Origin: Pseudomonadota bacterium
GTDB lineage: Bacteria; Pseudomonadota; Gammaproteobacteria; Steroidobacterales; MnTg04
Assembly (NCBI GenBank): GCA_022572885.1
Contig: JACZVC010000005.1
Location: forward strand, 1-64,000
Direction: 5' to 3'
DNA length: 64,000 bases
Below are positions 6,480 to 52,760 of this stretch, in pieces. Within the stretch, counting starts at the first letter, position 1. Each line of letters begins with the position of its first letter. The translations under genes and the position numbers were made by a program. The notes under the pieces were generated by a model. The model searched no databases and was not told the origin of the DNA. It saw nothing but the letters and a program-made list of their open reading frames with translations.

Positions 6480-6500
6480 ACGCTTGTCGCTGCTTTCTGC

Positions 6501-7511
6501 TTAACCCTGGTCCAGCAATTCCCTGAGATTGATGACCGCCGAGTTGGCGCGCGACAGGTACGAGGCGAGCACCAGTGAGTGATTGGCAAAAATTCCATAG
6601 CCTGAGCCATTCAGAATCACCGGGCTTTTGATGGGACGCAGGCCGCCTTCGAGTTCACGGATGATCTGGCGCAGCGACACGATCGCGTTCTTGTCCTTGA
6701 GGACTTTCTCGAAATCAAACTGTGCGGCCCTGAGAAAATGGACCAGCGCCCAGGTCGTCCCTCTGGCCTCAAAAAATACGTTGTCGATTTTCAGCCATGG
6801 CGTTTCGACCGAAACGTAGTCCGGCAGAATATCGGTGTTTGCCGCGGCCCTTTCACCGGCCAGATCGGTGTTTACCCGGACCTGTCCGACACTGGCGCTG
6901 AGTCTTTGCGACAGACTGCCCAACCTTTTCTCAACCACCACCAGCCACTCCCGTAAATTATCCGCCCGCGCGTAAAATTGGGCATTGCGATTTTCCGGGT
7001 CGCTGAGTCGATCGCGATAAGCTTTGAGATAACGGATTCCCTTGCGGTACTGTCGCTCACTCGATGGCAACATCCATGAGTTGTGATCGTAATTCAATAC
7101 CGGTTCCGCGAGCGCCAGATCGGGATCTTCCAACGACTGGGACTGCGAGCGGCTGTAGTCATTGCGCAATACCCGGGCGAGATCTCGCACCTGCACCACG
7201 ACCCCAAATTCCCAGCTTGGAATGTTGTCCAGAAATATCCCGGGCGGGGCAATGTCGTTGCTCAGGTACCCGCCAGGCTTATCGAGGAGTATTTCGGTCA
7301 CTTCGATCAGTGTTTGGGTCGTGGAATAACCGATGGGTGCGCGTTGCCCGGATACATCGGAAGTCACCCAGAACGGGTTTGGCTCGCGTGACCACCAGAA
7401 TGCGAGAATCAAAATAATGACCAGCAAGACCGCGAGCACTACACCGGCGGCGATCAGCCGGGGATTCCACTGCGCATCGGGCTCCTGCCATTGCCATATG
7501 TTTTTCATCAT
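6501..7511 (-). CDS. DUF2333 family membrane protein
   Basis: 336 residues from the ATG at 7511, chosen because GGAGCG lies five bases upstream; a second ATG is adjacent. One transmembrane segment (residues of about 20-45, AAGVVLAVLLVIILILAFWW) anchors a periplasmic domain of about 290 residues. The sequence matches my memory of the DUF2333 family, found in gamma- and alphaproteobacteria and without a known function. It lies 23 bases downstream of the SDR gene on the same strand and may share its transcript. Confidence 0.75.
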   Translation of the reverse strand: MMKNIWQWQEPDAQWNPRLIAAGVVLAVLLVIILILAFWWSREPNPFWVTSDVSGQRAPIGYSTTQTLIEVTEILLDKPGGYLSNDIAPPGIFLDNIPSWEFGVVVQVRDLARVLRNDYSRSQSQSLEDPDLALAEPVLNYDHNSWMLPSSERQYRKGIRYLKAYRDRLSDPENRNAQFYARADNLREWLVVVEKRLGSLSQRLSASVGQVRVNTDLAGERAAANTDILPDYVSVETPWLKIDNVFFEARGTTWALVHFLRAAQFDFEKVLKDKNAIVSLRQIIRELEGGLRPIKSPVILNGSGYGIFANHSLVLASYLSRANSAVINLRELLDQG

Positions 7512-7534
7512 TTGCGCTCCTGCTCGCAGCAAAG

Positions 7535-8356
7535 CTAATCGAGAAACAGATCGGGCGCCAGTGCCGTACCGGGGCTGACCGCGTAGCGAGAGAAATCGCT
7601 AACGCCAGATTCCCTGAGTACATCCTCATCGATCAGGAACTGTCCGTTGTATCTTTGGTCCGCAGCCGACAAAATCAGGTGAGCCGCATCGGCAACGATC
7701 TCCGGATGACGGCATTGTTCGGGTTTTACGAGGTCACCCAGCATCTTGATCGCGGCCGTTGCGATCACCGTACGCGGCCACAACGCACTGACCGATAAGC
7801 CACTGTTGGCAAACTCCCGGGCCATGCCCAGCACACACAGGCTCATTCCGTACTTGGCGATGGTATATGCAACATGCTCCTTGAACCACTTAGGATCCAG
7901 GTTCGGAGGCGGCGCCAGATTGAGTATCTTCGCCTGCCCGGATTGCAAAAGATGCGGCAAACATGCCTGGGAACAAAGGTAGGTTCCCCGTACATTGACG
8001 TCAAACATCAGGTCAAAGCGTTTCATCGGTGTGCCCAGGGTGCCCGCCAGGTAAATTGCGCTGGCATTGTTGACCAGGATATCGATGCCGCCGAAATGAC
8101 CAACCGCCTGGTCGACCGCTGCGCTCACCTGTGCCTCGTCGCGGATATCGGTCCGGATCGGCAGGGCCTTGCCTCCGGCTTGCTCTATTTCCCGCGCAAC
8201 ACTGGATATGGTGCCGGGAAGCTGCGGATGCTCGTGTTCGGTTTTTGCGGCGATCACGATGTTTGCGCCGTCACGCGCTGCCCGGCAAGCGATCGCTCGG
8301 CCAATGCCTCGGCTCGCGCCGGTGATGAAAAGGGTTTTCCCGTTTAGTGTCGTCAT
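7535..8356 (-). CDS. SDR family oxidoreductase (HSDL2-like)
   Basis: 273 residues of the short-chain dehydrogenase/reductase family: the dinucleotide-binding TGASRGIG near residue 12, NNAS near 92, and the catalytic YTIAK (YxxxK) near 168. The LNLAPPPNLDPKWF stretch before the catalytic Tyr is typical of the hydroxysteroid dehydrogenase-like 2 subgroup, without the SCP2 domain found in the eukaryotic protein. It overlaps the sirtuin gene by four bases (ATGA), so the two are co-translated. The substrate is unknown. Confidence 0.85.
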   Translation of the reverse strand: MTTLNGKTLFITGASRGIGRAIACRAARDGANIVIAAKTEHEHPQLPGTISSVAREIEQAGGKALPIRTDIRDEAQVSAAVDQAVGHFGGIDILVNNASAIYLAGTLGTPMKRFDLMFDVNVRGTYLCSQACLPHLLQSGQAKILNLAPPPNLDPKWFKEHVAYTIAKYGMSLCVLGMAREFANSGLSVSALWPRTVIATAAIKMLGDLVKPEQCRHPEIVADAAHLILSAADQRYNGQFLIDEDVLRESGVSDFSRYAVSPGTALAPDLFLD

Positions 8357-9135
8357 GGCTTTCTCATTTCTGGCAAGTCATATTCACGCTCGCCCGGACT
8401 ATCGCGCAATGCCCGGACGAGCGCCGGCAGAAACTGAGCCGCGGTGCCGTGCAAGGCATAGTTGGCGCGGTCGCTTAGCGAAGTCTCCTGCGGATTTATC
8501 TCGACCAGGCAGGCGCCGGATTGCAGCGCAAGCTCAGCGAGCCCCGCGGCAGGCTGGACCAGCGCCGAGGTGCCGATGGCAAAAAACACATCGCAGGCGC
8601 CCGCGTATTCGATAGCCGCCGCCAGGGCATCGGGGTCTATTTGCTCGCCGAACCAGACTACGTCCGGACGTAAATAAGCGCCGCAGCGAGGGCAGGGTGG
8701 GGGCGACTTGCTGGCGTCATAATCTTCGACCACGCAGCCTTCTTCCGAGCACACCGTGCGCATGATATTGCCGTGAAATTCGATCATATTCCGGCTGCCC
8801 GCAGCCTGGTGCAGACCATCCACGTTCTGCGAGATCAGGCTGAATCGAGGGAACATCCGCTCCAGATCGACCAGCGCAGAATGAGCTGCGTTTGGCCTGG
8901 CCTGCCTTACCAGCTTCCGGCGCCATTGATACCATTCCCAGACCAGCGATGGATCGTGCTGGAACGCCTCCATGGTCGCCAGAGCTTCCGGCTTGAATTT
9001 CGCCCACAACCCGGTTTGCGCATCGCGAAAGGTCGGCACGCCGCTTTCCGCCGATACGCCGGAGCCGGTCAGAACGCAGACGCTTTCAGCGGCCGCCAGT
9101 CTTGCTGTCAGCCCGATAGGAACTTCGCCGCTCAC
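8353..9135 (-). CDS. cobB: Sir2-family NAD-dependent protein deacylase
   Basis: 260 residues with all sirtuin motifs: GSGVSAESGVPTFRD for NAD binding, SQNVDGLHQAAG with the catalytic His shortly after (IEFHGN), four zinc cysteines (TVCSEEGC and PPCPRCGAYL), and GTSALVQPA near the C-terminus. It removes acyl groups from lysines using NAD and commonly controls acyl-CoA synthetases. The gene sits between aconitase upstream and the SDR gene downstream on the same strand, with a four-base overlap to the latter. Confidence 0.88.
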   Translation of the reverse strand: MSGEVPIGLTARLAAAESVCVLTGSGVSAESGVPTFRDAQTGLWAKFKPEALATMEAFQHDPSLVWEWYQWRRKLVRQARPNAAHSALVDLERMFPRFSLISQNVDGLHQAAGSRNMIEFHGNIMRTVCSEEGCVVEDYDASKSPPPCPRCGAYLRPDVVWFGEQIDPDALAAAIEYAGACDVFFAIGTSALVQPAAGLAELALQSGACLVEINPQETSLSDRANYALHGTAAQFLPALVRALRDSPGEREYDLPEMRKP

Positions 9136-9189
9136 TGGGCGCCCACTGCGATCTTTCCGGAACCGCTGAATGGCCGGTTGCTAAGCAGA

Positions 9190-11868
9190 TCATGCCGCCT
9201 TTGCTCGCCCTGCCAACTGGCGCAAAACATAGTGGAGAATGCCGCCATTTCTGTAGTACTCGCGTTCTTTTGGCGTGTCGATGCGGACCCGCGCAGAAAA
9301 ATGAATCGCTTCGCCGGATTCAGGCATCGCGACCACCCTGACCGATTCCGCATTCGCGTCCTCCAGGCCATTGATCGTGAAGCTCTCCTGGCCGGTGATG
9401 CCCAGGTTTTCCGCATTGTCCCCATCCATGAACTCCAGCGGCAGTACGCCCATGCCGATCAGGTTGGAACGGTGGATGCGCTCGTAACTTTCTGCAATTA
9501 CCGCCTGTACGCCAAGCAGTTTAGTGCCCTTTGCCGCCCAGTCACGAGACGAACCGGTACCGTATTCCTTACCGGCAATAACCAGCAGCGGAGTCCCTTC
9601 GTCATGGTAACGCATGGCGGCTTCGTAGATGGACAGCTGTTCGCCGCCGGGCTGATGGCGGGTCCAGCCGCCTTCGGTACCCGGTGCCAGCTGGTTACGC
9701 AGGCGGATATTCGCAAAAGTACCGCGCATCATCACTTCGTGATTACCGCGCCTCGATCCGTAGGAATTGAAGTCAGCCGTTTTCACGCCCTCTGCCCGCA
9801 GGTAATCGGCGGCCGGGCTGTCGCTCGCAATGCTGCCCGCCGGTGAAATATGGTCGGTGGTCACCGAGTCGCCGAGCAAGACCAGTACCCGCGCGCCGGA
9901 TATATCGCCGACCGGCGCCGCCGCCATCGTCATACCGGCAAAATAAGGCGGATTCTTGACATAGGTCGAATCCGCTTGCCACTGGTAGAGTTCTCCTTCG
10001 GCAACCTGCAAGCCGTTCCAATTTTTGTCGCCATCGAATACCTTTGCGTACTCGTGCAGGAACATTTCACGGTTAACGCAGGCATCCATCTTTGCGTGAA
10101 TTTCCCGCTGGCTCGGCCAGATGTCCCGCAGATACACGGGCTCGCCATCGGCATCTATTCCCAGCGAACTGTTGATCAGGTCGACGTTCATATTGCCGGC
10201 CAACGCATAGGCCACCACCAGCGGCGGTGAAGCGAGAAAATTCATTCTGACCAACGGGTGAATGCGACCCTCGAAATTCCGGTTGCCCGAGAGCACGGCA
10301 CAACCTACCAGTTGGCTGTTTTCCACCGCTTCCCGGATTTCCGGTCGCAGCGGCCCGGAATTGCCGATGCATGTCGTGCAACCATAGCCGACCAGGTAAA
10401 AGCCCATTTTCTCCAGGTCATCCAGCAAATCCGCTTTCTCGAGATACTCGCTGACCACCCGCGACCCCGGCGCCAGGCTGCCCTTGACCCACGGTTTGGT
10501 CTTTAGCCCCTTTGCGGCAGCGTTTCTTGCCAGCAAACCGGCCGCTATCATCACGGCCGGGTTCGATGTATTCGTGCAACTGGTGATTGCCGCGATCAGC
10601 ACCGAGCCATCGCAAAGCTCAAAATCCTGGCCATCCATGCTGACATCGGCCCGGCCGTTACTGTCCCTGCCGCTGATTTCCTGCGCCAGGTGATCCTGGA
10701 ACACTCTGGCCGCCGATTTCAGGGTGATCCGGTCCTGCGGCCGTTTCGGCCCGGCGATGCAAGGCTCGACATTCGCTATGTCCAGTTCCAGAACGTCGCT
10801 GTAATCTGCATCGGATTGTCCATCATCACGCCAGAGACCCTGGACCCTGGCGTAGGCTTCGACCAGTTCGATGGTGTGCGCATCGCGGCCGCTCAGTTCG
10901 AGGTAGCGGAGGGTTTCACCGTCGATCGGGAATATTGCGCAAGTACTGCCGAACTCCGGCGCCATGTTGGCCAGCGTCGCACGATCGGCAAGCGGCAGTT
11001 TCGCCAGCCCATCGCCGTAGAACTCGACAAATTTTCCAACCACGCCTTTTTCACGAAGCATCTGGGTAACGGTGAGTACCAGGTCGGTCGCGGTGGCCCC
11101 CTCAGGCAAATTGCCGCTCAGTTTGAAGCCGATGACCTGTGGGATCAGCATCGTGATCGCCTGGCCCAGCATGGCTGCTTCGGCCTCGATGCCACCGACT
11201 CCCCAACCCAGGACCCCCAGTCCATTCACCATCGTCGTGTGGGAGTCGGTGCCGACCAGTGTGTCCGGGTAAGCCTGCAGCACACCATCCTTTTCAACCC
11301 CAAAGACAACTCGTGCAAGGTACTCCAGGTTGACCTGGTGAACGATTCCGGTGTTCGGAGGAACGACCAGGAAGTTGTCAAAGGCATTTTGTCCCCAGCG
11401 CAGGAATGAATAGCGCTCCTTATTGCGCTGGAATTCGATAATATTATTCAGATCCAGTGCGTCGGCGGAACCATAATTATCGACCTGAACCGAATGATCG
11501 ATAACCAGTTCGGCGGGTGACAGGGGATTGATGTCAGCGGCCTTTCCGCCGAGCCTGACAACGGCATCACGCATCGCCGCGAGATCAACGACTGCCGGCA
11601 CACCGGTAAAGTCCTGCAAAATAACGCGCGCCGGCGTGAAAGCAATCTCCTGGCTGGGTTCGGCCTTTGCGTCCCAGTTGGCCACTGCCTCGATATCGTC
11701 CCGCGTAATGTCTATGCCATTCTCGTGACGCAGGAGGTTTTCGAGCAGGATCTTCAACGAATAGGGCAGCCGCTGGTAGTGGGTGCCTTCAAGGGCATCC
11801 AACCGGTAAATCTGGTATTCCTTGTCGCCGACTTTTAGCATCGAGCGTGCGTCAAACGAGTCCGTCAT
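9190..11868 (-). CDS. acnA: Aconitate hydratase A
   Basis: 892 residues, the usual length for AcnA/IRP-type aconitases. It isomerises citrate to isocitrate in the TCA cycle. The cysteines that bind the 4Fe-4S cluster are visible in [11 protein letters not shown] and [11 protein letters not shown], and the C-terminal swivel domain includes [12 protein letters not shown] and [16 protein letters not shown]. The start at 11868 is preceded by GGAGACC; a further in-frame ATG at 11892 is less likely. It is followed by the sirtuin gene 54 bases on, which may link TCA flux and acylation control. Confidence 0.95.
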
Positions 11869-11900
11869 GAGGTCTCCGAAATGGCAGGGCAAGCCGTAAA

Positions 11901-13040
11901 TTATACGGCATCGCGTTGCCTGGCGCTAAGTGGCGCGTGTTTCGCGGCGAGCGGCAGAATCGCATCGATGACCCCTCCGCCCAGACACCGTTCACCATCA
12001 TAAACCACCGCAAACTGGCCGGGCGTCACTGCCCTTTGGGGGTAATCGAAAAACAGCGAAAAGTTCCCCTGGGCATCCAGGGTGATCGTGCAGGGCTGGT
12101 CCTTTTGCCGGTATCGTGTCTTGGCGGCCAGATGGGCTCCGCTTTCAGGTTGTGTACCGATCCAATGACTGTCGATCGCTCGCAGACCACTGCTGTACAG
12201 CAGGGGATGATCGTGCCCCTGTACAACCATCAGCGTGTTGCGCTCCAGATTCTTGCCGGCGACATACCACGGCGACTCGGCGTGCCCCTTGCGACCGCCG
12301 ATCCCCAGCCCTTGTCTCTGACCCAGCGTGTAATACATCAGTCCATCGTGCCGGCCCAGTATTTCGCCGTCCGGGTCGCGAATATCGCCCGGGGTTGCCG
12401 GTAGGTAGTTTTCCAGAAAACTGCGGAAATGGCGTTCGCCGATAAAACAGATGCCGGTGCTGTCCTTTTTCCCAAAATTATCAAACCCCTGCTTCCGGGC
12501 GATGGATCGGACTTCCGCTTTCTGCATTTCTCCGATCGGAAACAACGCATCCTCGAGAGCTTTTGCAGAAACCGCATTCAGGAAGTAGCTCTGGTCCTTG
12601 TCCTGATCCAGTCCTTTTAACAAACTGACACCGGCAGCCGAGCACTCGACCCTGACATAGTGCCCGGTGGCTATATAGCGGGCCCCGAGACGCAAGGCGT
12701 ATTCACGAAAGACGCCGAATTTGATTTCGCGATTACACAGCACATCCGGGTTTGGCGTTCTTCCGGCTTGAATTTCTTCCAGGAAATAGGCGAACACGCG
12801 TTCGCGATATTCCTCTGCGAAATCGACCTTGTGCAATGGAATACCGAGTTCAGCGCATACCTGCCGGGCATCCTGATAATCCTGGGCAGACTGGCAATAG
12901 CCGTCCTCATCGTCTTCCCAGTTGTTCATGAACAGGCCGTGCACTTCGTAACCGGCCTCCAACAGCACAAATGCGGCAACCGATGAATCAACGCCACCGG
13001 ACATTCCGACTATTACTCGATCTCGCCTGTTGGCAGGCAT
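11901..13040 (-). CDS. mnmA: tRNA-specific 2-thiouridylase MnmA
   Basis: 379 residues. MnmA adds the 2-thio group to U34 of the Lys, Glu and Gln tRNAs. The PP-loop [13 protein letters not shown] lies at the N-terminus, and the two catalytic cysteines are in [12 protein letters not shown] and [12 protein letters not shown]. The C-terminal beta-barrel domain is complete. The gene is 81 bases downstream of nudJ on the same strand, the same nudJ-mnmA order as in E. coli. Confidence 0.95.
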
Positions 13041-13121
13041 AACTGTGTAACCCTGGACAGATTGGAAGAGACCGTATTATAAGCGCAATGCTTTTTTTTG
13101 ACCGCCTTGGCGATCTGCGCC

Positions 13122-13598
13122 TCAGGAAACCTGGTCGCGATTTTTACGAGTCAGCGGCAGATGACTGACCAGGTCCAGAGGAAATCGTTGCCCCGCGAGA
13201 TAGTCATCGATGCAACGCATTACCATGGGGCTGCGCAGTTGGCCGGAACGAGCAAGCAACTGCCCTCTATCCAACCAGACCGCACGAATTATTCCGCGGT
13301 CCAGATTTCGACCCGGAAGATGTTCAAGAACATCGCCGGTAAACGCAAAACGGATAAAAGTCTTTTGCTTTTCAGGATGGGTCCACTGATAAATACCGAT
13401 CAGAGCTTTCGGTTCGAAATTCCAGGCGGTTTCTTCCAGTGTTTCACGAATGGCTGCCTCGACCAGGCTCTCGCCGGGCTCGAGATGACCGGCGGGCTGA
13501 TTCAAGACCTTGCGGCCATCGGCGAACTCTTCGACCAACAAAAAACGGTCATCCTTCTGGATGACCGCGGCAACTGTTACATGAGTGATCCATGACAT
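13122..13598 (-). CDS. nudJ: NUDIX hydrolase, NudJ type
   Basis: 158 residues with a perfect Nudix box (GHLEPGESLVEAAIRETLEE) starting near residue 37. NudJ hydrolyses thiamine pyrimidine pyrophosphate and nucleoside di/triphosphates. Identification rests on length, the start MSWITHVTVAAVI, and its position next to mnmA, the arrangement known in enterobacteria. It is divergent from the Slam-like gene. Confidence 0.88.
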   Translation of the reverse strand: MSWITHVTVAAVIQKDDRFLLVEEFADGRKVLNQPAGHLEPGESLVEAAIRETLEETAWNFEPKALIGIYQWTHPEKQKTFIRFAFTGDVLEHLPGRNLDRGIIRAVWLDRGQLLARSGQLRSPMVMRCIDDYLAGQRFPLDLVSHLPLTRKNRDQVS

Positions 13599-13661
13599 TC
13601 GGGAAGTATACCGTCAGCGAAACCGGGCGGCTGAAAAATCCGTCAATTCCTTCGCGCAAAA

Positions 13662-13677
13662 TGTGAATTCCTTCACG
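13662..13677. promoter_or_regulatory. CRP-like binding site upstream of the Slam-like gene
   Basis: TGTGA-ATTCCT-TCACG, flanked by AAA on the left and TTT on the right. Over the 22-base E. coli CRP consensus, both half sites match except one base. It lies about 97 bases before the ATG at 13774 and about 64 bases upstream of the divergent nudJ start. Confidence 0.6.
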
Positions 13678-13716
13678 TTTGCCGCCTGTCGAATTGTCTA
13701 TCCTGCAAAACAACTG

Positions 13717-13734
13717 CGATGTTATGTAACATCG
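13717..13734. promoter_or_regulatory. Perfect 18-base palindrome in the Slam-like gene leader
   Basis: CGATGTTA-TG-TAACATCG reads identically on both strands, 39 bases before the start codon at 13774. Its position suits an operator for a dimeric repressor. No T-run follows, so it is not a terminator. The binding protein is unknown. Confidence 0.45.
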
Positions 13735-13773
13735 GGTCCAGGGAGCATTGGCAGCCAGGGAGGTTAATTCTGC

Positions 13774-15096
13774 ATGACATCCAATTGTAAACGGATTTTC
13801 AAATCGCTGATCCCCATACTGGCCCTGGTGTATACGGGCGTGGCCATGGCCTCCGACGACGGTCTGCGAAAAGCACAGCATATGCTGAATCTGGGGCAGC
13901 CTGCTCAGGCGCTTGCAATTCTTTCGCCCATGGAACCGCAACTGGCCGGTGACAGCCGGTTCGACTATCTGTTCGGTTTGGCGTTGCTTGAAACCGGTCA
14001 TACCGGAAAAGCGATTTTCGCCTTGCAACGCACTGTCGATAATGACCCGTCGTTTGCGGCGGCGCGCCTGGATCTCGCCCGCGCTTTTTTTGTGGAAGAG
14101 AATATGGTGGAAGCAAGATTTCATTTACTGATACTTCGCGATCAGAATCCGCCACCGGTAGCGCAGCGGGAAATCCGCAATCTACTGGCGCGAATCGACA
14201 GCAGAAACAGGCCGGGGGAAAATCGCTATCAAGCTTACACCGAGTTTGCCGCGGGCTTTGACAGCAACGCCAATGGCGCAACGGACACCAGCAGCTTTCT
14301 CGGATTCGTGCTGGATCCGGAAAGCAGGGAAACCGACAGCCCCTATGCGTCCTATGCGATTGGCGGCGAGATTCAACGGCCTTTCGAAAAAGGGTTGATC
14401 TGGAGCACACGGGCGGATCTGGGGCAAAGAAATTATCCCGATGCTTCCTTTGTAAATACCACCCTGGGCAGTATTCGCTCACGCATCAGAAAGCTTGGCG
14501 ACACGACACAGTACTCCGGTGGCCTGATGGCTTACCGGCTGGATACCGACAGCAAGCTAAACAGCCAGGGCATCGGTCTGGCAGGGGATTACCAGCGCAA
14601 ACTGAACAGCAAAACCTATTTTTCTCTGCTGGGAAAACTGACCATGATCCGGTATGCGGACAATCAGGACATTCGGGATGTCGATCAGTTCCTGATCGGG
14701 TCAACGATCAGTCGGGTTTTTGGCGCTTCCGGGTTGGGCAATGCGAGTGCAACATTGTTGCTTGGCCGCGACGATGCCCGGTTGCCGAGCTCGAAATACA
14801 GCCGCTACATTACCGGCCTGCAGGTGTTTGTTGGCTGGAATTTCAATAGCAAAGTCCGCTTCCAGACGATGGCGGGCATAAGCCGGTCTGAATATGATGA
14901 AGTATTTTTCCCGCAACAGATCAATCAGGACCGCCGGGACACGCTGAGCCAAATCACGCTACGCATAACCTGGAAGATCAATCGGCACTGGTTGTTAAAT
15001 TACAGTTATGCGCACCAGAAAAATAACTCCAATGTCGAAATATTCGGCTTCGATCGAGACGTCGCCGGTCTGTCACTGAGACGAATCTGGCGCTAA
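13774..15096 (+). CDS. Slam-like outer-membrane protein (TPR plus barrel, DUF560)
   Basis: 440 residues. A signal peptide (MTSNCKRIFKSLIPILALVY... cleaved near VAMASDD) is followed by a TPR region at about 28-150, with repeat-like FDYLFGLALLETGHTGKAI and AAARLDLARAFF. The remaining 280 residues are amphipathic beta strands rich in Tyr/Arg/Ser ending in LSLRRIWR, as expected for an outer-membrane barrel. This is the architecture of surface lipoprotein assembly modulators (Slam, type XI secretion). AGGAGG-like GGGAGG precedes the ATG. The FecR-barrel and lipoprotein genes downstream are plausible cargo. An unrelated TPR-porin is the alternative. Confidence 0.75.
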   Translation: MTSNCKRIFKSLIPILALVYTGVAMASDDGLRKAQHMLNLGQPAQALAILSPMEPQLAGDSRFDYLFGLALLETGHTGKAIFALQRTVDNDPSFAAARLDLARAFFVEENMVEARFHLLILRDQNPPPVAQREIRNLLARIDSRNRPGENRYQAYTEFAAGFDSNANGATDTSSFLGFVLDPESRETDSPYASYAIGGEIQRPFEKGLIWSTRADLGQRNYPDASFVNTTLGSIRSRIRKLGDTTQYSGGLMAYRLDTDSKLNSQGIGLAGDYQRKLNSKTYFSLLGKLTMIRYADNQDIRDVDQFLIGSTISRVFGASGLGNASATLLLGRDDARLPSSKYSRYITGLQVFVGWNFNSKVRFQTMAGISRSEYDEVFFPQQINQDRRDTLSQITLRITWKINRHWLLNYSYAHQKNNSNVEIFGFDRDVAGLSLRRIWR

Positions 15097-44528: not shown

Positions 44529-44571
44529 GACCGGGACTCAGCGATATCCATGACCCACACCGCCCGGGTGG

Positions 44572-44649
44572 CGAAATTGGTAGACGCAAGGGACTTAAAA
44601 TCCCTCGATCAATGTGATCGTGCCGGTTCGATTCCGGCCCCGGGCACCA
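44572..44649 (+). tRNA. tRNA-Leu(UAA), integration site of the element
   Basis: Acceptor stem GCCCGGG/CCCGGGC, anticodon TAA at 44596-44598, long variable arm with stem CGATCA/TGATCG (44606-44620), T-arm GGTTCGATTCC and encoded CCA. From the anticodon stem onward it is partly repeated at 52702-52760 with a different variable arm, so its 3' half was probably delivered by the integrated element. Confidence 0.96.
44592..44649 (+). repeat. attL: 3' half of tRNA-Leu
   Basis: Two identical blocks are shared with 52702-52760: 16 bases from the anticodon arm (44592-44607) and 29 bases of the 3' end (44621-44649). They are separated by 13 non-matching bases of variable arm. Offset to the distal copy is 8110-8111 bases, giving the element size. 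Confidence 0.85.
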
Positions 44650-44771
44650 ATTAAATCAGTGAGTTATAGCTGATCGAACTTTCGCTGCTGACAAGGATTT
44701 GCCTTTTGGTCCACAAATGGTCCACAGTACGTCAGAACAGTTGGCGGACGGAGAGGACACGGAGAGGACCA

Positions 44772-45860
44772 GTGGCGACAATCACAAAGCGTGAATCAAC
44801 GGACGGCAAAACCGTTTATCGATGCCGCATTCGATTGAGTGGTTATCCCGATCAGAGCGCGACATTTAAATCCATAAAAAAAGCGAAGGACTGGGCCAAG
44901 ATCACCGAGGCGGCGATCATCGAGGGCCGACATTTTTCCAGCCAAAAAGCCAAGCGACGGACGCTGGCCGAGGCGATCGATCGTTACACTGACGACAATC
45001 TGCCGGCGCTCGCGGCCAGCGAGCAAAAGAGCCGAACGCGCCATCTTGAGTACTGGAAAAAGCGCCTGGGCAAAATGACGCTCGCGCACTTGTGCAACGA
45101 CGCCGAGCCGATTCGGGAGCTGAGAAAGAAACTCAGCCGAGGCAAGACGGTGCGCGGCACGATTCGCTCGCCGGCGACCGTGAATCGATACCATGCCAGC
45201 CTGTCAAAGCTGTTCACTACAGCGATGCGGTGGGGTTGGGCAAACTCCAATCCGATGAGACTAATCGAGAAGGGCAGGGAAGCAGCCGGCCGCGAGAGAT
45301 TCCTGGCTGACGACGAACTCGATCGACTACTAAAGGCGACCGCAAAGAGTAAGGATCCGTTTCTCGATATCACGGTCAAGCTCGCGTTGACGACCGGCGG
45401 ACGCTATTCCGAAATCCTGGGCCTTACCTGGTCAAACGTATCAATCGAGCGAGAGACCGTCACGTTTCGGAATACCAAGAACAAGGAATCGCGAACGGTA
45501 CCGCTCGTGGAGCCGGCGCTATCGGTCGTCACGAAATTGCATGAGACGCGACGCCAGGATACCGACTTGCTGTTTCCCTGGTCGAAGCCGGACCAGCCAA
45601 AGGATATTCGCAATGGCTGGCAGAACGCGCTCAAGGCCGCTGAGATCGAAAACTTTACGTTTCACGATCTCAGGCATACCTGCGCGAGCTATCTGGCGAT
45701 GAACGGCGCCAGCCCGTCCGAGCTGGCCGCTGTCCTCGGCCACAAGACTCTCGCAATGGTGAAGCGGTACAGCCACGTCAGCGAAGTCCATACGGCGGAC
45801 CTGGTTCGCGCGATGGCGGCGAAGCGGTTCGGATCGAAAGAGGCAACGAGCGATGAATAA
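44772..45860 (+). CDS. Tyrosine recombinase / integrase of the element
   Basis: 362 residues from the GTG at 44772, chosen because GGAGAGG lies four bases upstream; the frame is open to a TTG at 44706. An N-terminal arm-binding region and SAM-like core (about 65-165) precede the catalytic domain, with the Arg in TTGGRYSEILGL, HDLRHTCASYL, and LGHKTLAMVKRYSHVS containing the final His and nucleophile Tyr. It sits 122 bases from the tRNA-Leu 3' end and reads away from it, the standard position for a tRNA-targeting integrase. Confidence 0.93.
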   Translation: MATITKRESTDGKTVYRCRIRLSGYPDQSATFKSIKKAKDWAKITEAAIIEGRHFSSQKAKRRTLAEAIDRYTDDNLPALAASEQKSRTRHLEYWKKRLGKMTLAHLCNDAEPIRELRKKLSRGKTVRGTIRSPATVNRYHASLSKLFTTAMRWGWANSNPMRLIEKGREAAGRERFLADDELDRLLKATAKSKDPFLDITVKLALTTGGRYSEILGLTWSNVSIERETVTFRNTKNKESRTVPLVEPALSVVTKLHETRRQDTDLLFPWSKPDQPKDIRNGWQNALKAAEIENFTFHDLRHTCASYLAMNGASPSELAAVLGHKTLAMVKRYSHVSEVHTADLVRAMAAKRFGSKEATSDE

Positions 45861-46410
45861 TCTTGAGTGGTACGAGCTTGCCGTCGGCATTCGTCGGCGC
45901 ACCGCAATCATCATTGGTGCTAGAAAGATTCATTATTTTGCCGGCGTCGAACTGGATGCGAGCCAGACGAAGCACGTAGACGCTCGTGACTGGTCATTAG
46001 AGGACTTGCCAGCTGACTGCCGTTCCGCAATCGAAGATCTACTTGAGCGAATCCCGCAGATTGATTTGAAACGAGAGTTCGGCGAAATATTCCTGGCGGC
46101 CAAAGACATTGGATGGATCGAGGCTATGGCCAAGCAATCCGAATGGCGGAATCTTGAGCAGGCCCCATCTTTTCAAATTGGTCGCGAAGTGAATGCCGCC
46201 GAATATATAAAAACGAACAGGAGACTAGAGAAGCGATACCTGGAATTACTTGGGCCCTTGGCTCAGAGATTGCCGGGACCATTTGAAGACAATGCTGATA
46301 AGCCAATGCGAAAAATTCTCGAACAAGAATTTAATATGAAGCCACGAACAGTCAACAACCGACTTATTAAAATGAAATTGCGCAAATCGGTACCCAAAAA
46401 CAAGCGCTAG
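45853..46410 (+). CDS. Element hypothetical protein 1
   Basis: 185 residues, overlapping the integrase by eight bases, so it is co-translated. No signal or membrane helix. The charged C-terminal 40 residues (MRKILEQEFNMKPRTVNNRL then KMKLRKS) look like a helix-turn-helix, and the N-terminal half contains GIRRRTAIIIGARKIHYF. I do not recognise a family. Its place after the integrase suggests a regulatory or excision role. Confidence 0.65.
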   Translation: MNNLEWYELAVGIRRRTAIIIGARKIHYFAGVELDASQTKHVDARDWSLEDLPADCRSAIEDLLERIPQIDLKREFGEIFLAAKDIGWIEAMAKQSEWRNLEQAPSFQIGREVNAAEYIKTNRRLEKRYLELLGPLAQRLPGPFEDNADKPMRKILEQEFNMKPRTVNNRLIKMKLRKSVPKNKR

Positions 46411-46438
46411 ATTGGTAATGCTGATCTGAATTACCAAT
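46411..46438. promoter_or_regulatory. Inverted repeat upstream of the AlpA-like gene (candidate operator)
   Basis: ATTGGTAAT (46411-46419) and ATTACCAAT (46430-46438) are perfect inverted copies separated by 10 bases, starting directly after the TAG of the previous gene and 56 bases before the AlpA-like start. No T-run follows, so an operator for a dimeric protein fits better than a terminator. Confidence 0.5.
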
Positions 46439-46493
46439 ACGTTAGGGAAGCCAAACTCAGCCATGTAAACATGCTTCCAACTAGGAGGCCAAC

Positions 46494-46733
46494 ATGGCAA
46501 ATCAAGCAAACAAGCAGCGAACACCGGATACCCGTTACATTCCGGTCGCCCAATTCGATCAGTACCATCCCTGGCCGACGCCGCAGTCGATTCGCAATCG
46601 CATTCACGCAGCGAAGCGAGGCACCGACGCCGACTTTTTGAAGTGCATCAAATGGGCCGGCGGTCGAGTGCTGGTCGATGAGCAAGCGTTTCTTACCTGG
46701 CTCGAAGGACAGTCCGACACTGAGGTCGCGTAA
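46494..46733 (+). CDS. AlpA/excisionase-like DNA-binding protein
   Basis: 79 residues, with an ideal AGGAGG ribosome-binding site. The fold pattern is a MerR-like winged helix as in AlpA, Xis and phage Cox proteins: YIPVAQFDQYHPWPTPQSIRN, a variable wing, and the end VLVDEQAFLTWLEGQ. In satellites and P4-like elements AlpA proteins control integrase expression and excision. The short inverted repeat just upstream could be its operator. Confidence 0.7.
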   Translation: MANQANKQRTPDTRYIPVAQFDQYHPWPTPQSIRNRIHAAKRGTDADFLKCIKWAGGRVLVDEQAFLTWLEGQSDTEVA

Positions 46734-47102
46734 ATGGCTTCGGTCGAGGCGAAATCCGGCTGCCGCCGGACACTGCCGCCATATGGGCGACAGTATCTCG
46801 AAGATCCACCCAGCGCTGGCTTGTGGGTCGTTTTCGGCCCGGACGCATGGGACTTCGCGAGTAAACAGCCGTTTCCGGTCGTTGTGCTTCCGCCCGGCGC
46901 GAAGCCAACGGACTACGACTGGCCGGCTACGTCCGGTCCAGCCCTAATCTTCGAGACTGGTCCGCGAGCTGACGATCTGCTGCATGAACTAGCCAAGAGT
47001 CTAATGCTGGTCGGGGCACCGTCAGTCGTTGCGATTCGGGAGTCATTGCTCAGCTCGTCCAAGTGCTCTCTTTTCTTCGAGGCGGTACCTTATGGCGAGT
47101 AA
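46734..47102 (+). CDS. Element hypothetical protein 2
   Basis: 122 residues, starting on the base after the AlpA-like stop. The sequence is mixed alpha/beta (GLWVVFGPDAWDFASKQ, PVVVLPPGAKP, LLHELAKSLMLVGAPSVVAI). No family recognised. The end overlaps the RepA-like gene by 11 bases, implying translational coupling and possibly a partner of that ATPase. Confidence 0.6.
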   Translation: MASVEAKSGCRRTLPPYGRQYLEDPPSAGLWVVFGPDAWDFASKQPFPVVVLPPGAKPTDYDWPATSGPALIFETGPRADDLLHELAKSLMLVGAPSVVAIRESLLSSSKCSLFFEAVPYGE

Positions 47103-48147
47103 CGGTGAAACCGTCCAGATACCTATCAGAAGACCAAGAGCCGATCTAACCTGTTTCGCAGACATTCAGGAATCCCGGCTTGAGTGGTTGTGGCCGGGTC
47201 GAATTCCACTCGGCAAGTTGTCGGTCATTGCAGGGGATCCGGGACTCGGGAAATCACTGGTGACGATTGCTATCGCTGCTGCCGTTACCAGCGAAGCGAA
47301 ATGGCCCGATTGTCACGAGTATGCACCGCACGGCAGCGTAATCTTGCTCTCGGGTGAAGACGATGACAGCGACACGGTGAAGCCTCGATTGCGGGCTGCC
47401 GGCGCCGACCTGGACAACATCTATTCCATGAGCGCAGTGATCGAAAATGACGATGGCAGTCGCCGCGGACTAGCGTTGGACCGCGACATGGAATTGTTGC
47501 GCGACGCTATTCGCCGCATTCCAGATTGCCGACTTGTCGTCATAGATCCGCTTGCCGCGTTTCTCGGGTCTGTGGACTCACACAAGAATGCCGACGTTCG
47601 CGGGCTGCTCAGCGTGCTTGCCGAGATCGCCCAGGAGAGTCGAGTCGCGATCCTCTACGTGAGTCATCTCAACAAGGGAACCGGAGGACCGATGGCGCGC
47701 ATCACGGGCTCGGGTGCGTTTGTCGCTGCCGCTCGCAGCGGCATGATTGTTGGTCGTGATCCGGAAAACGCCGATCGGCGAATTATTTTCATGCCGAAAT
47801 GCAATTTATCAAAAGAGGTCGAGGGCGTCGCGTACCGAGTCAGGGAATCGTCTGAGGATAGTGAATTGCCAGTTGTTCAGTGGGAGCAGGGCTTCGTAGA
47901 CGTCGATGGCGAGACCTTGCTAAGTAGCGAGGGATCAAACAACTGTCGAGAGCGCACAGAGGCCGCTGAATGGCTTGTTGTTGAGCTATCGACCGGCCCG
48001 CAATTGACGACAGATCTACAGAGCAAGGCGAAGCAGGCAGGCCATGCTTGGCGCACAGTACGACGCGCAAAGGATGAACTTGGTGTAAGGCCAAGACACG
48101 ACGGTATCAGCGGCAAGTGGCGATGGGTGTTGCCGGGAAATGAATAA
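47092..48147 (+). CDS. RepA-like AAA ATPase (RecA-fold, replication type)
   Basis: 351 residues from the ATG at 47092. Walker A is GDPGLGKS (48-55), Walker B is CRLVVIDPLAAFLG, and YVSHLNKGTGG with RITGSGAFVAAARSG are typical of the RSF1010 RepA-like helicase group (AAA_25). The last 80 residues look like a winged helix (EAAEWLVVELSTGPQLTTDL). Such proteins act as hexameric helicases for plasmid or satellite replication. No primase domain is present in this protein. Confidence 0.82.
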   Translation: MASNGETVQIPIRRPRADLTCFADIQESRLEWLWPGRIPLGKLSVIAGDPGLGKSLVTIAIAAAVTSEAKWPDCHEYAPHGSVILLSGEDDDSDTVKPRLRAAGADLDNIYSMSAVIENDDGSRRGLALDRDMELLRDAIRRIPDCRLVVIDPLAAFLGSVDSHKNADVRGLLSVLAEIAQESRVAILYVSHLNKGTGGPMARITGSGAFVAAARSGMIVGRDPENADRRIIFMPKCNLSKEVEGVAYRVRESSEDSELPVVQWEQGFVDVDGETLLSSEGSNNCRERTEAAEWLVVELSTGPQLTTDLQSKAKQAGHAWRTVRRAKDELGVRPRHDGISGKWRWVLPGNE

Positions 48148-48175
48148 CAAGGCGGCCACGATTCCCCGCGCCAGA

Positions 48176-48252
48176 ATCTTGGACAAGTTGGCCACCTTCC
48201 CGCAACTTGGCCAACTTGGCCAACATTTCGGGACGGGTGTTTGTGGACAAGT
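48176..48252. repeat. Short repeats downstream of the RepA-like gene (possible origin)
   Basis: ACTTGGCCA occurs twice in direct tandem (48205-48222), with a related AGTTGGCCA at 48186-48194, and GGACAAGT near both edges (48181 and 48244). Clusters of short repeats beside a replication gene can be iterons. The number of copies is small and no AT-rich unwinding region is evident. Confidence 0.35.
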
Positions 48253-48263
48253 GGAGAGTAGAG

Positions 48264-48521
48264 ATGGACAAACCAGAAATGATGAACCCGCCGGCCGCCG
48301 AACAGATAAATGAAGTGGCCGCGGCGATGCGTAAAGCAATAGTGGTTTATTTCGACGCCGGCTACTCACCGGGAACAATTTCAGGCGGACTCATGGTCGC
48401 CATCTACAACCTGATGAAAGCCCAGGAGATGAGCGAGATGAAAATCTCAAACGAGCTGTATCGGATAGTGGACGGAGTTCGTGAACTAGCATTTCTTGCA
48501 TTTGAAAATTCTAACGAGTAA
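48264..48521 (+). CDS. Element hypothetical protein 3
   Basis: 85 residues from the ATG at 48264, which follows GGAG seven bases upstream; the frame is open to a TTG at 48207. The sequence is alpha-helical (EQINEVAAAMRKAIVVYFDA, LMVAIYNLMKAQEMSEM). No family recognised. It lies between the replication ATPase and the capsid gene. Confidence 0.5.
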   Translation: MDKPEMMNPPAAEQINEVAAAMRKAIVVYFDAGYSPGTISGGLMVAIYNLMKAQEMSEMKISNELYRIVDGVRELAFLAFENSNE

Positions 48522-48640
48522 CCTGTGCCTGCGTTAAGTCGCTCCATCATCGGTTATTGCTTCGCGCTAACCGATTGGCATGCAGCGACTGGAAGTGAAG
48601 TTATCCGCGAAAGCGATGCGACTCGCCGACACGCACAGGT

Positions 48641-48664
48641 GGCCCGGGAACGTTGTTCCGGGCC
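48641..48664 (+). terminator. Strong hairpin upstream of the capsid gene
   Basis: GGCCCGGGAAC (48641-48651) pairs with GTTCCGGGCC (48655-48664), with one bulged G, over a three-base loop. A T-run is found 20 bases further on, not immediately after. It may separate the replication and capsid transcripts or act in the capsid mRNA leader. Confidence 0.4.
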
Positions 48665-48715
48665 TTGCATGTGTTGCCGGCAGTCGTTTTTTTCTGCCTG
48701 TCGGCCGGAGAAGTC

Positions 48716-50599
48716 ATGAGGCTATCTGAGCAGGACAAGCGGAAGTTTGACGACTTCATTTCGTCGCCCCAGCGGCGTTCAGTTTCGCTCGATTCTCGAG
48801 AGGTCCATCTCGACGAAGACAAACGCACGATTCAAGTTGCGTTCTCGTCGGAAGCATCCATCCGACGTTGGTTCGGGATAGAAGTTCTCGGGCATGGCGC
48901 GGACGAAGTCAGCCTCGATCGTTTTCACGACGGCGCGGCGGTACTGGTTAACCACGAGTTGAATGAACACATCGGTGTTATCGAAAGAGCCTGGATCGAA
49001 GGCTCGACCGGTCGGGCGATTTTACGTTTCGGTAAAGGCGATCGTGCCGCCGAGGTTTTCGAAAACATTCTTGATGGAATTTTTCGCCACATAAGTGTCG
49101 GTTATATCATCCACGAGATGATCCTGGAGACTCAGGTCGATGACGGGCCCGATGTTTATCGCGTCACCGATTGGGAACCTTTTGAGATCTCACTCGTAGC
49201 CGTACCAGCGGATACATCAGTAGGTGTAGGCCGCAGCAATTTCGAATCAATTCACGAGGACATAACGATGAAAACAGAAACAACTTCCAGTTCGCGGTCA
49301 CAAAGGCGAACAGATAACCAGGTAACAGAGGCCGAGCGAGAACGCGTTACGGAGCTTCTAGCCACTGGAGAGGCGCACGAAGCCCAGGACCTCGCCCGAC
49401 AGTTAGTGAAAAGCGGCGGATCCGTCGCGGACTTGAATGCGATGATCTTGGACCGAGGCGGCTTCCCGGCAACGAAAGCCGAGGATCCGTCGATAGGACT
49501 CTCACAAAACGAGATCCAGAAATACAGCCTATGTAAGGCAATCGTGGCCGCTGCTTACCCGGCCGATCGCAAGCTGCAGGCGGCGGCGGCCCTCGAGATG
49601 GAATGTTCGGAGACGGCCCGCGGGCAGCTTACTACTCGCACCGTTAGAGGAAATCTGTTCATTCCTCCTGAAATCTTGAGTCAACCGCGGGGCCAGCGCA
49701 ACCTTACCGTTGGCGCAGACGGCGGCGACCTGGTTGCCACGAATCTGCTCTCGGGCTCATTCATTGACTTGCTGCGCAACGCCAGCGTTGTCCAGGCGGC
49801 GGGCGCTCTGGTACTGCACGGTTTAGTTGGGAACGTCTCCATTCCTCGTCAGACTGGCGACGAGAACGTGTTCTGGTTAGCCGAGAACGCAGCTCCGACA
49901 GAGAGCTCCGCAACGTTCGACCAGGTGCCGCTTACTCCGAAAACGTTAGCAGCGTACTCCGAGATCAGTCGCAAATTGCTACTTCAGGGAACTCCCGCAA
50001 TTGAGGGCCTTGTGATGAAGAGCCTCGCCGATACGATCGCTATAGAAGTCGATCGAGTGGCAATCGACGGCTCCGGCGCGGGAGAAGAGCCGACCGGCAT
50101 TTTGAACCAGGCGGGCGTGGGCGTAGTCGCCGGAGACGTTAACGGTCTCGCACCGACATTCGCCAACATCGTGGCCCTGGAATCGTCAGTTAGCGTACCG
50201 AATGCTCTCATCGGGAGGTTGGCATACGTCACCAATTCGAAGGCAGTCGGCGACCTCAAACAGATATCTGTCGACGCTGGCAGCGGGCGCTTCCTACTCG
50301 AGGGCCGAACCGATGGCGATCGACAAACGCTATCGATGAATGGGTATAAAACGATCATGTCGAACAATGTGCCGTCAGATTTAGTCAAGGGAACTTCCGG
50401 CGCAACTCTGTCCGCGATCATCTTCGGTAACTTCGCGGATCTGATCATCGGTATGTGGTCGGGCCTGGATCTCCAGGTCAATCCGTACAGCCTGGACACC
50501 AGCGGTCAGATACGCATCACGGCGTTCCAGGACCTGGACATTGCACTGAGGCATCCTCAGTCCTTCAGCGCCATCGTCGACGTGATCACGACCACGTAG
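48716..50599 (+). CDS. Fused HK97 prohead protease and major capsid protein
   Basis: 627 residues from the ATG at 48716, preceded by GGAG. Residues of about 1-185 are an S78 prohead protease, with likely catalytic His80 (LVNHE), Ser127 (HISVGY) and Glu in WEPFEISL. About 190-290 is a Gln/Glu/Arg-rich delta/scaffold region. From about 300 to the end is an HK97-fold major capsid protein (IPRQTGDENVFWLAENA, YSEISRKLLLQGTP, EPTGILNQAGVG, QIRITAFQDLDIALRHPQSF). It should assemble and self-process a small capsid. The gene lacks an adjacent portal and terminase. Frames are intact throughout. Confidence 0.92.
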   Translation: MRLSEQDKRKFDDFISSPQRRSVSLDSREVHLDEDKRTIQVAFSSEASIRRWFGIEVLGHGADEVSLDRFHDGAAVLVNHELNEHIGVIERAWIEGSTGRAILRFGKGDRAAEVFENILDGIFRHISVGYIIHEMILETQVDDGPDVYRVTDWEPFEISLVAVPADTSVGVGRSNFESIHEDITMKTETTSSSRSQRRTDNQVTEAERERVTELLATGEAHEAQDLARQLVKSGGSVADLNAMILDRGGFPATKAEDPSIGLSQNEIQKYSLCKAIVAAAYPADRKLQAAAALEMECSETARGQLTTRTVRGNLFIPPEILSQPRGQRNLTVGADGGDLVATNLLSGSFIDLLRNASVVQAAGALVLHGLVGNVSIPRQTGDENVFWLAENAAPTESSATFDQVPLTPKTLAAYSEISRKLLLQGTPAIEGLVMKSLADTIAIEVDRVAIDGSGAGEEPTGILNQAGVGVVAGDVNGLAPTFANIVALESSVSVPNALIGRLAYVTNSKAVGDLKQISVDAGSGRFLLEGRTDGDRQTLSMNGYKTIMSNNVPSDLVKGTSGATLSAIIFGNFADLIIGMWSGLDLQVNPYSLDTSGQIRITAFQDLDIALRHPQSFSAIVDVITTT

Positions 50600-51089
50600 G
50601 GAAACTGAGGGGGCCTGGCTTGCTGACATATCAACCAGGCTCCTCCGCTCGGGCAGCGAGCGCCTCGATAGCTTGCTGGAGGCATCTCCCGCGCCGTTCA
50701 CCCGGACGGCGTCACGGTGCACTTATACGATCGCGGGGCCACCCCCCGCCAGGGAGAAACTTTTTCCGTTCGGATTCCTGCCGGCAAAAGGTACTCCCTG
50801 GCGGGGGGGGTCTATGTGGGTACGCAGCTCCGCACGCTTTGGCGTTTTATTTTGCTGCGAGATCGCGATTGATGATGATCAACGAGCGTCAGATTCGTAC
50901 ATTAACTTTACGATATAACATCCTGTTTTATATAGAGAATAACTTAAAAAATCGCGCTCAATTGAATCCGTTAGTGTTGATCAGTCTACCCTCAGAACCG
51001 GTGCACTTGGATCGAGCGTGTCCGGAGCGGACAGTGGTACTGAGCTAAGATGGGGTCTTTTGGAGAAGGATATTCCCAAGGGAATTTCA
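50600..51089. other. 490-base region between capsid and trypsin-like genes
   Basis: The first half is GC-rich and holds an open frame without ATG at 50672-50870 (listed separately). From about 50890 to 50970 the composition becomes AT-rich (ATATAACATCC, TTTTATATAGAG), suggesting a promoter for the trypsin-like gene. No terminator with a T-run was found. Confidence 0.5.
50672..50870 (+). CDS. Possible small ORF, 66 codons or a gene remnant
   Basis: An open frame directly after a TAG reads ...VTVHLYDRGATPRQGE..., IPAGKRYSLAGGVYVG and ends LLRDRD-stop. The amino-acid pattern and GC-rich third positions look protein-like. There is no ATG; a GTG at 50717 could start a 51-residue protein. The frame crosses a run of eight Gs at 50803-50810, prone to slippage. 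It could be a decayed head protein gene. Weak call. Confidence 0.2.
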
Positions 51090-51827
51090 ATGTCCGGTCC
51101 GGTAGATAGGGCCACCATGGAAATGGTCGTATTCCCGATCATTAAGGTCCTATTTCTGTCTGATGGTACTGAGGTCCACAAGTTGGTTGGGACAGGGTTC
51201 TTCCTGAACGAGAATGGACTCTTTCTTTCTGCGCGGCACGTATTCCAGGGGAGGGAGTGCGCACTCGACCTTGAGGGAGCTGATGGCTTCGCGGTCTATT
51301 GCATACACGCCGTAAACCTTAATCGAAAAATGGTACTTCGCCACATTGACGTGCAATCCATCAAAACGCGAAACGACACTGATATTGCGGCAGGTTACGT
51401 CGAGAAAAATCAGTTCGGACGGGCCAATGCTGAAATAACAGAATCTGAATTGCAGAATACTGCACATATAAATTTTACGACGAAAGGCAACTTGCCGATC
51501 GGTACTGATATTTGGACAGTTGCGTATCCGCTTATGACATTGGGAAGCGTCGTTGATGGTGGCATTGCTATCAATTTCCAATCCGACATGTTTCGCGGAC
51601 GGATAACGGCGCACTACCAAGAGCGACGAGACGCGGGACTGCTTAACTGGCCATGCTATGAAACAGATATGCAGATATTGGGCGGCGCGAGCGGTGGGCC
51701 TGTATTTGTATCTGGGAGTAGCGGCGTCGTTTTTGCCGTCAACTGTTCTGGCACAACTCCGCACACAGTCTCGCATGTGTCCTCATTACGACCGGCTATC
51801 TTGGCCGGTGAAGTCAACGGACACTGA
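51090..51827 (+). CDS. Trypsin-like serine protease of the element
   Basis: 245 residues from the ATG at 51090, which follows AAGGGA; an upstream GTG at 51018 has no good ribosome-binding site. The S1 triad is visible: His50 (FLSARHVF), Asp98 (NDTDIAAG), Ser201 (GGASGGPVF). GTGFFLNENGLFLSA is the usual N-terminal barrel start. There is no signal peptide, so it probably acts in the cytoplasm, which is unusual for this family but common for trypsin-like peptidases in defence loci. It lies in the cargo position near attR, together with a small membrane protein. Confidence 0.85.
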   Translation: MSGPVDRATMEMVVFPIIKVLFLSDGTEVHKLVGTGFFLNENGLFLSARHVFQGRECALDLEGADGFAVYCIHAVNLNRKMVLRHIDVQSIKTRNDTDIAAGYVEKNQFGRANAEITESELQNTAHINFTTKGNLPIGTDIWTVAYPLMTLGSVVDGGIAINFQSDMFRGRITAHYQERRDAGLLNWPCYETDMQILGGASGGPVFVSGSSGVVFAVNCSGTTPHTVSHVSSLRPAILAGEVNGH

Positions 51828-52017
51828 CTGACATGGACACCGCCTAGCTGTGATAGTCGGGACCCAAAACTTACGTACACAATCAGATTCCATCACGACC
51901 GAATGTCTGCTTTGCAGCCATTAGCAGCCGTCCAGGTGATAAACTGGCGAACGACTGCAGTTGACCCCAAGCGGAAGATCGTTAACATGACTCGTTGGTG
52001 GGGTAGGGACCAGACAA

Positions 52018-52416
52018 ATGGCCAAAAGAAAAACATCTAAGACCGGGGGAGGAAGGTACATCAAACCTCACGAACGGAGTATTCAAGTTGAGGGAACAAC
52101 TGAGATGTCAATTGGAGAAATTGTCGACATGCAACAAGGTACTGTTTTTTCCGCCGCCGACAAGATCATCGGCGGGGCCCTGGTTCTAATTGTAATGACG
52201 TTTGCAGGCTCGATTTGGTCACTAAATGGCACATTAAGGACTGCTCTCAAGGACCAAAACGTTGCACTTGTCAACGCTCTAGCGGAACAGAACAAGACGA
52301 TGAGGGACGAACTGAAAGACATCCGTGACGTTGCACGTGAGGATCGTCAGCTATATCTTGATCGGCTAGAAAATAAGCTTGATGATTTTGAAGATAAGCT
52401 CGATGAATTAAACTAA
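52018..52416 (+). CDS. Small membrane protein with a C-terminal coiled coil
   Basis: 132 residues, with AGGGA before the ATG. A basic N-terminus (MAKRKTSKTGGG), one transmembrane helix at about 47-69 (IIGGALVLIVMTFAGSIW), and a long charged coiled coil at about 75-132 (NKTMRDELKDIRDVAREDRQ, LYLDRLENKLDDFEDKLDEL). No family recognised. It follows the trypsin-like gene by 190 bases and is the last gene before attR, so the two may form a module. Confidence 0.7.
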   Translation: MAKRKTSKTGGGRYIKPHERSIQVEGTTEMSIGEIVDMQQGTVFSAADKIIGGALVLIVMTFAGSIWSLNGTLRTALKDQNVALVNALAEQNKTMRDELKDIRDVAREDRQLYLDRLENKLDDFEDKLDELN

Positions 52417-52701
52417 CACGGCCGCTCCTAGCCGACTACCGCCTTCAATCCGATGTTAATGAACGGTCCGCTCTTGGCCGATAGCGGCTTTTCAGATTGT
52501 AGGATTTCTAGCGTTTCGAACGACCGGTCCCGGCGGAAGCAGCCAAACCGAAATGGTCCAATTTCGGGCCACGCTCGGCTAAAACGGGCCAGAAATCGTC
52601 AAAACGAACGGGCAATGAAGATTCAGTGAAAAGCGTTGCGGCTCAACGCTTTCGATAACAATTCACGTACACTGAAAAATACTGAAAAACAGCGCAGGAA
52701 C
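52417..52701. other. Gene-free segment before attR
   Basis: No coding frame is supported. It holds a perfect hairpin with stem AAAGCGTTG (52630-52638) and CAACGCTTT (52644-52652) over a five-base loop, and a tandem ACTGAAAAAT/ACTGAAAAAC (52671-52690) just before attR. The latter may be integrase arm-binding sites. Confidence 0.45.
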
Positions 52702-52760
52702 GACTTAAAATCCCTCGGAGATACATCTCCTTGCCGGTTCGATTCCGGCCCCGGGCACCA
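52702..52760 (+). repeat. attR: displaced 3' half of tRNA-Leu
   Basis: 16 bases of the anticodon arm (52702-52717) and 29 bases of the 3' end (52732-52760) match tRNA-Leu at 44572-44649. Between them the variable arm is GGAGA-TACA-TCTCC, itself able to pair, unlike that in attL. No acceptor 5' strand or D-arm lies upstream, so it is not a functional tRNA. Confidence 0.88.

Follow-up and report, generated by a model that had tools for sequence, protein, structure and literature searches.

A probable PICI-like element at a tRNA-Leu gene with a fused protease-capsid protein as its one structural gene

Lone capsid homologues in phage satellites are already known, and so are the full head modules of the cf-PICIs. 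SaPIbov5 encodes Ccm, a lone homologue of the HK97 fold that redirects capsid size (PMC5052747). Among the Gram-negative PICIs, PmCI172, which makes small capsids, has a gene for a major capsid homologue, and EcCICFT073 also encodes a capsid homologue (PMC6092414). Whole head modules are carried by the cf-PICIs, the Streptomyces satellites Mulch and Flayer and the cf-PISP (PMC10690885, PMC13230959), and the PISP satellite-plasmid TG93 has a capsid E, a protease and TerS (PMC13230959). The average size is 9.5 kb for a PICI and 14 kb for a cf-PICI (PMC10803314). A preliminary description of the locus studied here had assigned to known satellites either the full head set or no capsid, a division contradicted by SaPIbov5 Ccm, PmCI172 and PISP.

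The element described in this study occupies positions 44592-52760 of the window, that is, the whole stretch of 64,000 nucleotides that was analysed. Inserted at the 3' end of tRNA-Leu(taa), it is 8.1 kb long, near the PICI average and below that of the cf-PICIs. We think it probable that this is a PICI-like, helper-dependent satellite with one structural gene, which would supply its own, probably small, shell and borrow portal, terminase and tail. Its features are as follows.

44562..44649, + strand, intact tRNA-Leu(taa) (ARAGORN)
44592-44649, + strand, attL core (direct repeat with 52702-52760)
44772..45860, + strand, tyrosine integrase, GTG start likely (PF00589, 1.9e-33)
45853..46410, + strand, orf185, no assigned function (ORF list; overlaps the integrase end)
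46494..46733, + strand, 79-aa AlpA-like/excisionase-like candidate (homologues in the same position in G441 and G387)
46734..47102, + strand, orf122, no assigned function (homologue in the G441 element, 40% identity over 87 aa)
47092..48147, + strand, RepA-like AAA_25 ATPase (PF13481, 2.2e-34)
48149..48224, + strand, candidate replication origin with TTGGCCA iteron-like repeats, directly 3' of repA
48264..48521, + strand, 85-aa protein between repA and capsid (ORF list; 104 aa with TTG at 48207)
48716..50599, + strand, fused prohead protease (S78)-HK97 major capsid protein, 627 aa (Pfam/PHROG)
50742..50808, + strand, 67-nt imperfect palindrome 3' of the capsid gene (fold z-score -5.8)
51018..51827, + strand, trypsin-like serine protease, cargo (PF13365, 7.2e-10)
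52018..52416, + strand, 132-aa coiled-coil protein with a hydrophobic segment, cargo (weak PHROG matches only)
52702..52760, + strand, attR, second copy of the tRNA-Leu 3' end (direct repeat)

The direct repeat GACTTAAAATCCCTCG is found at 44592 and 52702 and a 29-bp perfect repeat at 44621 and 52732, with a spacing of about 8110, and both correspond to the 3' part of the intact tRNA-Leu(taa) at 44562-44649. In genome G388, a congener of the same genus, the site is empty. Because both flanks, 91.6% (left) and 86.8% (right) identical to those in the window, meet there in a single 59-bp att copy, the intervening stretch of the window is an insertion of about 8.1 kb. With its own integrase, 71% identical to that of the G441 element at the same tRNA-Leu site, and its att repeats, the element displays the site-specific integration of PICIs; unlike PICMIs, which integrate at fis and are without capsid genes, it lies at tRNA-Leu and carries one. 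The clear genes, namely integrase, RepA-like ATPase, fused protease-capsid and cargo, are all on the + strand. ARAGORN, the repeats, Pfam and PHROG thus agree with the preliminary description on the tRNA-Leu repeats, integrase, RepA-like ATPase, protease-capsid fusion and single coding strand. That description had also named an AlpA-like regulator. The gene is indeed present, but neither the Pfam nor the PHROG search returned a match for the 79-aa candidate, and its profile matches the AlpA/HTH genes of related elements weakly (hhalign probability 9%), so that the name follows from size, position and the homologues that G441 and G387 have in the corresponding position.

Replication of the element is predicted to depend on the RepA-like ATPase, 43% identical to RepA of the G111 element, and on iteron-like repeats common to both. 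The TTGGCCA motif occurs in three copies within 60 bp, which none of 500 simulated elements reached, and the region after repA is 77% identical over 57 nt to its counterpart in G111 (L015, reverse complement, ~6500-6660), which makes these shared repeats a candidate iteron origin. No primase domain was found in the element. As for the smaller genes, an ORF similar in size to orf185 comes after the integrase in several relatives, a likeness of size and position, and several relatives have ORFs of 82-97 aa in the region of the 85-aa protein, a likeness of position only. In four elements (L026, L062, L063 and L064) the 82-97 aa ORFs preceding the fused capsid gene show a CxxC...CxH-like pattern, and these ORFs could form a new small family. 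The cargo genes lie between capsid and attR. The trypsin-like protease shows a weak PADLOC RT-Protease match (4e-6) and is possibly a defence gene; the cargo part of the G453 element holds a Trypsin_2-like gene that falls below the Pfam cut-off.

The 627-aa fusion matches PF04586 (1.5e-5), PF05065 (2.6e-38) and PHROG 617, major head protein (7.6e-146). The protease residues H80, S127 and E157 are invariant in all 62 sequences compared, and the fused capsid ORFs of relatives remain open at 29-52% identity to the window capsid. The protein models as an HK97 fold in AlphaFold (mean pLDDT 75, pTM 0.51, the domain arrangement being unsure), and the nearest PDB match to the model is the R4C phage capsid (E 6e-19, 32% identity). 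Downstream, the 67-nt palindrome is single-copy in the host genome, and a 50-bp piece overlapping it (50785-50834) is 74% conserved in G453, so the region 50742-50834 may be a terminator or a packaging site. An ORF at 50717-50872 was considered as a phage-type small post-capsid gene and set aside; the link was unconvincing, and the conserved piece resembles DNA, not protein.

Beside this gene, Pfam and PHROGs detected no portal, terminase or tail gene in the element, and no unexplained ORF >250 aa is left for a portal or large terminase, which bears out the earlier claim of no other structural gene. Nor was a TerS, cos or pac site identified, and none of the ORFs tested matched the P4-like families Psu, Sid, delta or P4 primase. 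The head module of a cf-PICI comprises capsid, protease, portal, connectors, TerS and TerL, of which the element has capsid and protease only. In the host genome we found no portal of PF04860 or PF05136, the two main Pfam portal families, so the helper would not be a resident prophage with such a portal. A second, distantly related HK97 capsid gene lies near a contig end of this genome (G000 contig C3, 819-2063, L073).

The same plan is repeated elsewhere. The preliminary description had proposed looking for it in other genomes, and we identified 11 other att-bounded elements with integrase and capsid, ten in gammaproteobacterial genomes and one in a Nitrospira MAG, with sizes of 7.8-10.6 kb. 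Searching 369 genomes of the class for the capsid gave G111 and G363, and a profile search across 296 genomes of the order gave four elements with fused capsids (G453, G541, G450 and G496) and four with plain capsids (G441, G603, G494 and G387). Many of the host genomes appear to be draft assemblies or MAGs. The order- and class-search elements end in repeats of 15-56 bp derived from tRNA genes; in G363, G441 and G603 these measure 15-17 bp, and at such short lengths the ends are less certain. The capsid is similarly placed in these elements, behind a replication or regulatory module, and reading of gene lists and ORFs >250 aa revealed a recognised large terminase in none of the 11. The missing head and tail genes between capsid and attR of relatives would have refuted the satellite class of the preliminary description; a full set was not found, but some elements carry one or two further parts: a portal in G387, a small terminase in G603 and a tape measure in G111, G496 and G363. 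The G111 element, inside a 47-bp tRNA-derived repeat, has the order integrase, two AlpA/HTH genes, RepA, a 95-aa ORF and fused capsid (42%), followed by a short tape-measure-like protein and a Minor_tail_Z/neck protein. That of the Nitrospira MAG, bounded by 49-bp tRNA-Gln repeats, encodes an integrase, a replication initiator-like protein (weak match), DnaB, an 87-aa ORF, the fused capsid and a PADLOC candidate defence pair. Just inside both of its ends (L026 5131 and 14800) is a 22-bp repeat, ACAGTCTACACAGAGTCTACAT, resembling integrase arm sites, and G450 has a similar inner repeat. The G453 capsid, within a 56-bp att, is 52% identical to that of the window. The G441 element, the most informative of them, shares with the window the tRNA-Leu and homologues of the AlpA-like gene and orf122; it differs in its replication region and carries defence-type cargo, a methyltransferase and a DndB-like gene.

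Several other loci deserve mention in their own right. In G843 (L205), positions 5685-14076 beside a tRNA-Arg hold a tape measure, capsid, protease-like gene, portal and integrase, with no recognised large terminase in the cluster. Plasmid pPL62-4 of Planctomyces sp. SH-PL62 (L024), circular and 12.5 kb, carries a P4-family primase and a lone HK97 capsid gene with no annotated terminase or portal, and is possibly a plasmid form of the same plan. Ruegeria sp. R13_0 (L029) has at 9947-11296 a lone capsid gene adjoining an integrase-like gene; its fused protease is cut short and its delta region is nearly gone (32 residues versus about 150-260).

The absence of packaging genes was compared with phages having fused capsids of 37-44% identity. 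With a tblastn panel for terL and portal, most of 80 such IMG/VR contigs showed terL and/or portal, usually upstream of the capsid, and those with no match were mostly truncated at a contig end; the portal directly precedes the capsid in most annotated phages examined. Since the panel detects these genes in phages, their absence lies with the elements themselves and not with the queries. The panel is made up of lambda-type sequences. It did not pick up the PF04860 portals in G387 and G843, and reading of ORFs >250 aa and of gene lists therefore settled the absence. Single-protein pattern scans of genome and viral contigs gave no matches, alignments being needed, and RepA-based matches in IMG/VR were mostly phages.

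These data bear on the alternative offered in the preliminary description, a tightly deleted prophage, in which integrase, replication gene and capsid would have survived by chance. Its capsid family is that of ordinary tailed phages. A tree of 27 capsids gave a satellite clade (support 94/93), with a separate origin of G496 (AU p 6e-11); with more phages, in a tree of 62 sequences, the satellites are placed among phages in no resolved clade, and no single origin is therefore claimed for their capsids. The window and G453 capsids are firm sisters. Between the att sites, however, neither portal, large terminase and tail genes nor remains of them are present, and the same absences recur in 12 att-bounded elements of similar size, one of them in another phylum, with the capsid similarly placed. 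Capsid ORFs and protease residues are intact, and random decay would not repeatedly spare the largest structural gene. A one-off, private deletion is at odds with a plan repeated in many genomes, including 11 other tRNA-bounded elements, and we regard a deleted prophage as unlikely. A shorter delta (scaffold) region was also tried as a signature of size and rejected: it differed from 19 phages (p 0.001), but against 56 the ranges overlap (p 0.01). Because of this overlap and of the unresolved clade, small-shell specialisation is not visible in the capsid sequence.

Another explanation, which we hold equally improbable, is that the capsid serves only as a weapon of interference, co-assembling with the helper capsid to resize or poison it with no shell of its own. 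Ccm offers a precedent, as it has the HK97 fold, is unable to form capsids alone and blocks its helper (PMC5052747), and the G441 capsid at the same site belongs to PHROG 617, as does the window's, but is without the protease part. The window capsid nevertheless has its full length and an intact protease, like those of complete phages, and a poison would need neither; relatives, moreover, add a tape measure and a neck protein. A domesticated encapsulin-like nanocompartment on a genomic island would account for an HK97 fold with no packaging genes, and encapsulins are among the structure matches, but it is very improbable, as phage and GTA capsids rank ahead of them in structure and sequence matches, a prohead protease is fused, the carrier is att-bounded with integrase and replication gene, and no conserved cargo enzyme adjoins the capsid gene.

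The recurrence of the plan, the empty site in G388, the open capsid ORFs and the invariant protease residues together favour a satellite, as do the G441 capsid at the same tRNA-Leu, the repeats shared with G111 and the defence-type cargo of the Nitrospira and G441 elements. Against it count the failure to identify a TerS, cos or pac site and a capsid with no clear difference from those of phages. From the favourable evidence we infer helper dependence, shell formation, small size and packaging. The simplest use of the capsid gene would be for the element to provide shell and protease and an infecting phage the portal, motor and tail. The element would remain silent at tRNA-Leu until a helper phage infects, when the integrase would excise it and RepA would replicate it from the iteron-like repeats behind repA. 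The fused protein may then assemble and mature a shell suited to a genome of about 8 kb, by itself or in a mixture with the helper's capsid protein; the particle would be completed with a portal, large terminase and tail from the helper. The helper would come from outside, as an infecting phage rather than a resident one with a Pfam-type portal, and relatives would substitute further parts case by case, such as tape measure, neck, TerS or portal.

The comparable elements suggest that phage parasites of this type recur, building the shell themselves and borrowing everything else. The self-shelled satellite class of the preliminary description thus stands in that its plan recurs; the borrowing of terminase, portal and tail is predicted, and the class is less distinct than proposed, capsid-bearing satellites being already known. 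More tentatively, we speculate that there could be a widespread, unnamed satellite group encoding only the parts that set virion geometry (shell and protease, in some a tape measure), with helper portal, motor and tail built into a smaller, satellite-specified particle. The element fills a gap: some satellites only reshape the capsids of their helper, others bring a whole head. It raises the question of which virion parts can be exchanged singly, as a foreign shell must accept the helper's portal and terminase; if the proposal is true, portal-shell compatibility becomes testable in a natural minimal case. Satellite searches that require terminase or portal genes would probably overlook such elements. 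The open-access papers searched contained no description of this element set, and "undescribed" is provisional, subscription papers and preprints being mostly outside the search.

Compared with known systems, the element resembles SaPIbov5, a cos SaPI, as a satellite with a lone HK97-fold capsid homologue, whereas Ccm has no protease part and replication gene and hosts also differ. It is like the Gram-negative PICIs PmCI172 and EcCICFT073 in being integrative, in belonging to the class of about 10 kb and in the capsid homologue that some of them carry; their capsid genes are not described as protease fusions in PMC6092414, and the element differs from them in the candidate status of its AlpA and in the primase domain not found in it. 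With the cf-PICIs, Mulch and Flayer and the cf-PISP it shares the supply of its own capsid, tails being borrowed by those satellites (PMC10690885, PMC13230959), but they add portal, connectors and both terminase subunits to what is here only capsid and protease. PISP (TG93) likewise has a capsid and head maturation protease, with portal and large terminase not reported (PMC13230959), yet its capsid is of the capsid E family, its protease is separate, and it has TerS and is a plasmid without integrase. Phages of the VP882, PPpW-3 and S-CBS type have the same fused capsid type (34-41% identical), but they are complete phages of 30-44 kb, with the portal gene directly upstream of the capsid where shown. 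The present elements are set apart from those known by a protease-capsid fusion of full length, replication of the RepA/DnaB type, their spread to Nitrospirota and the tape measure that some relatives add.
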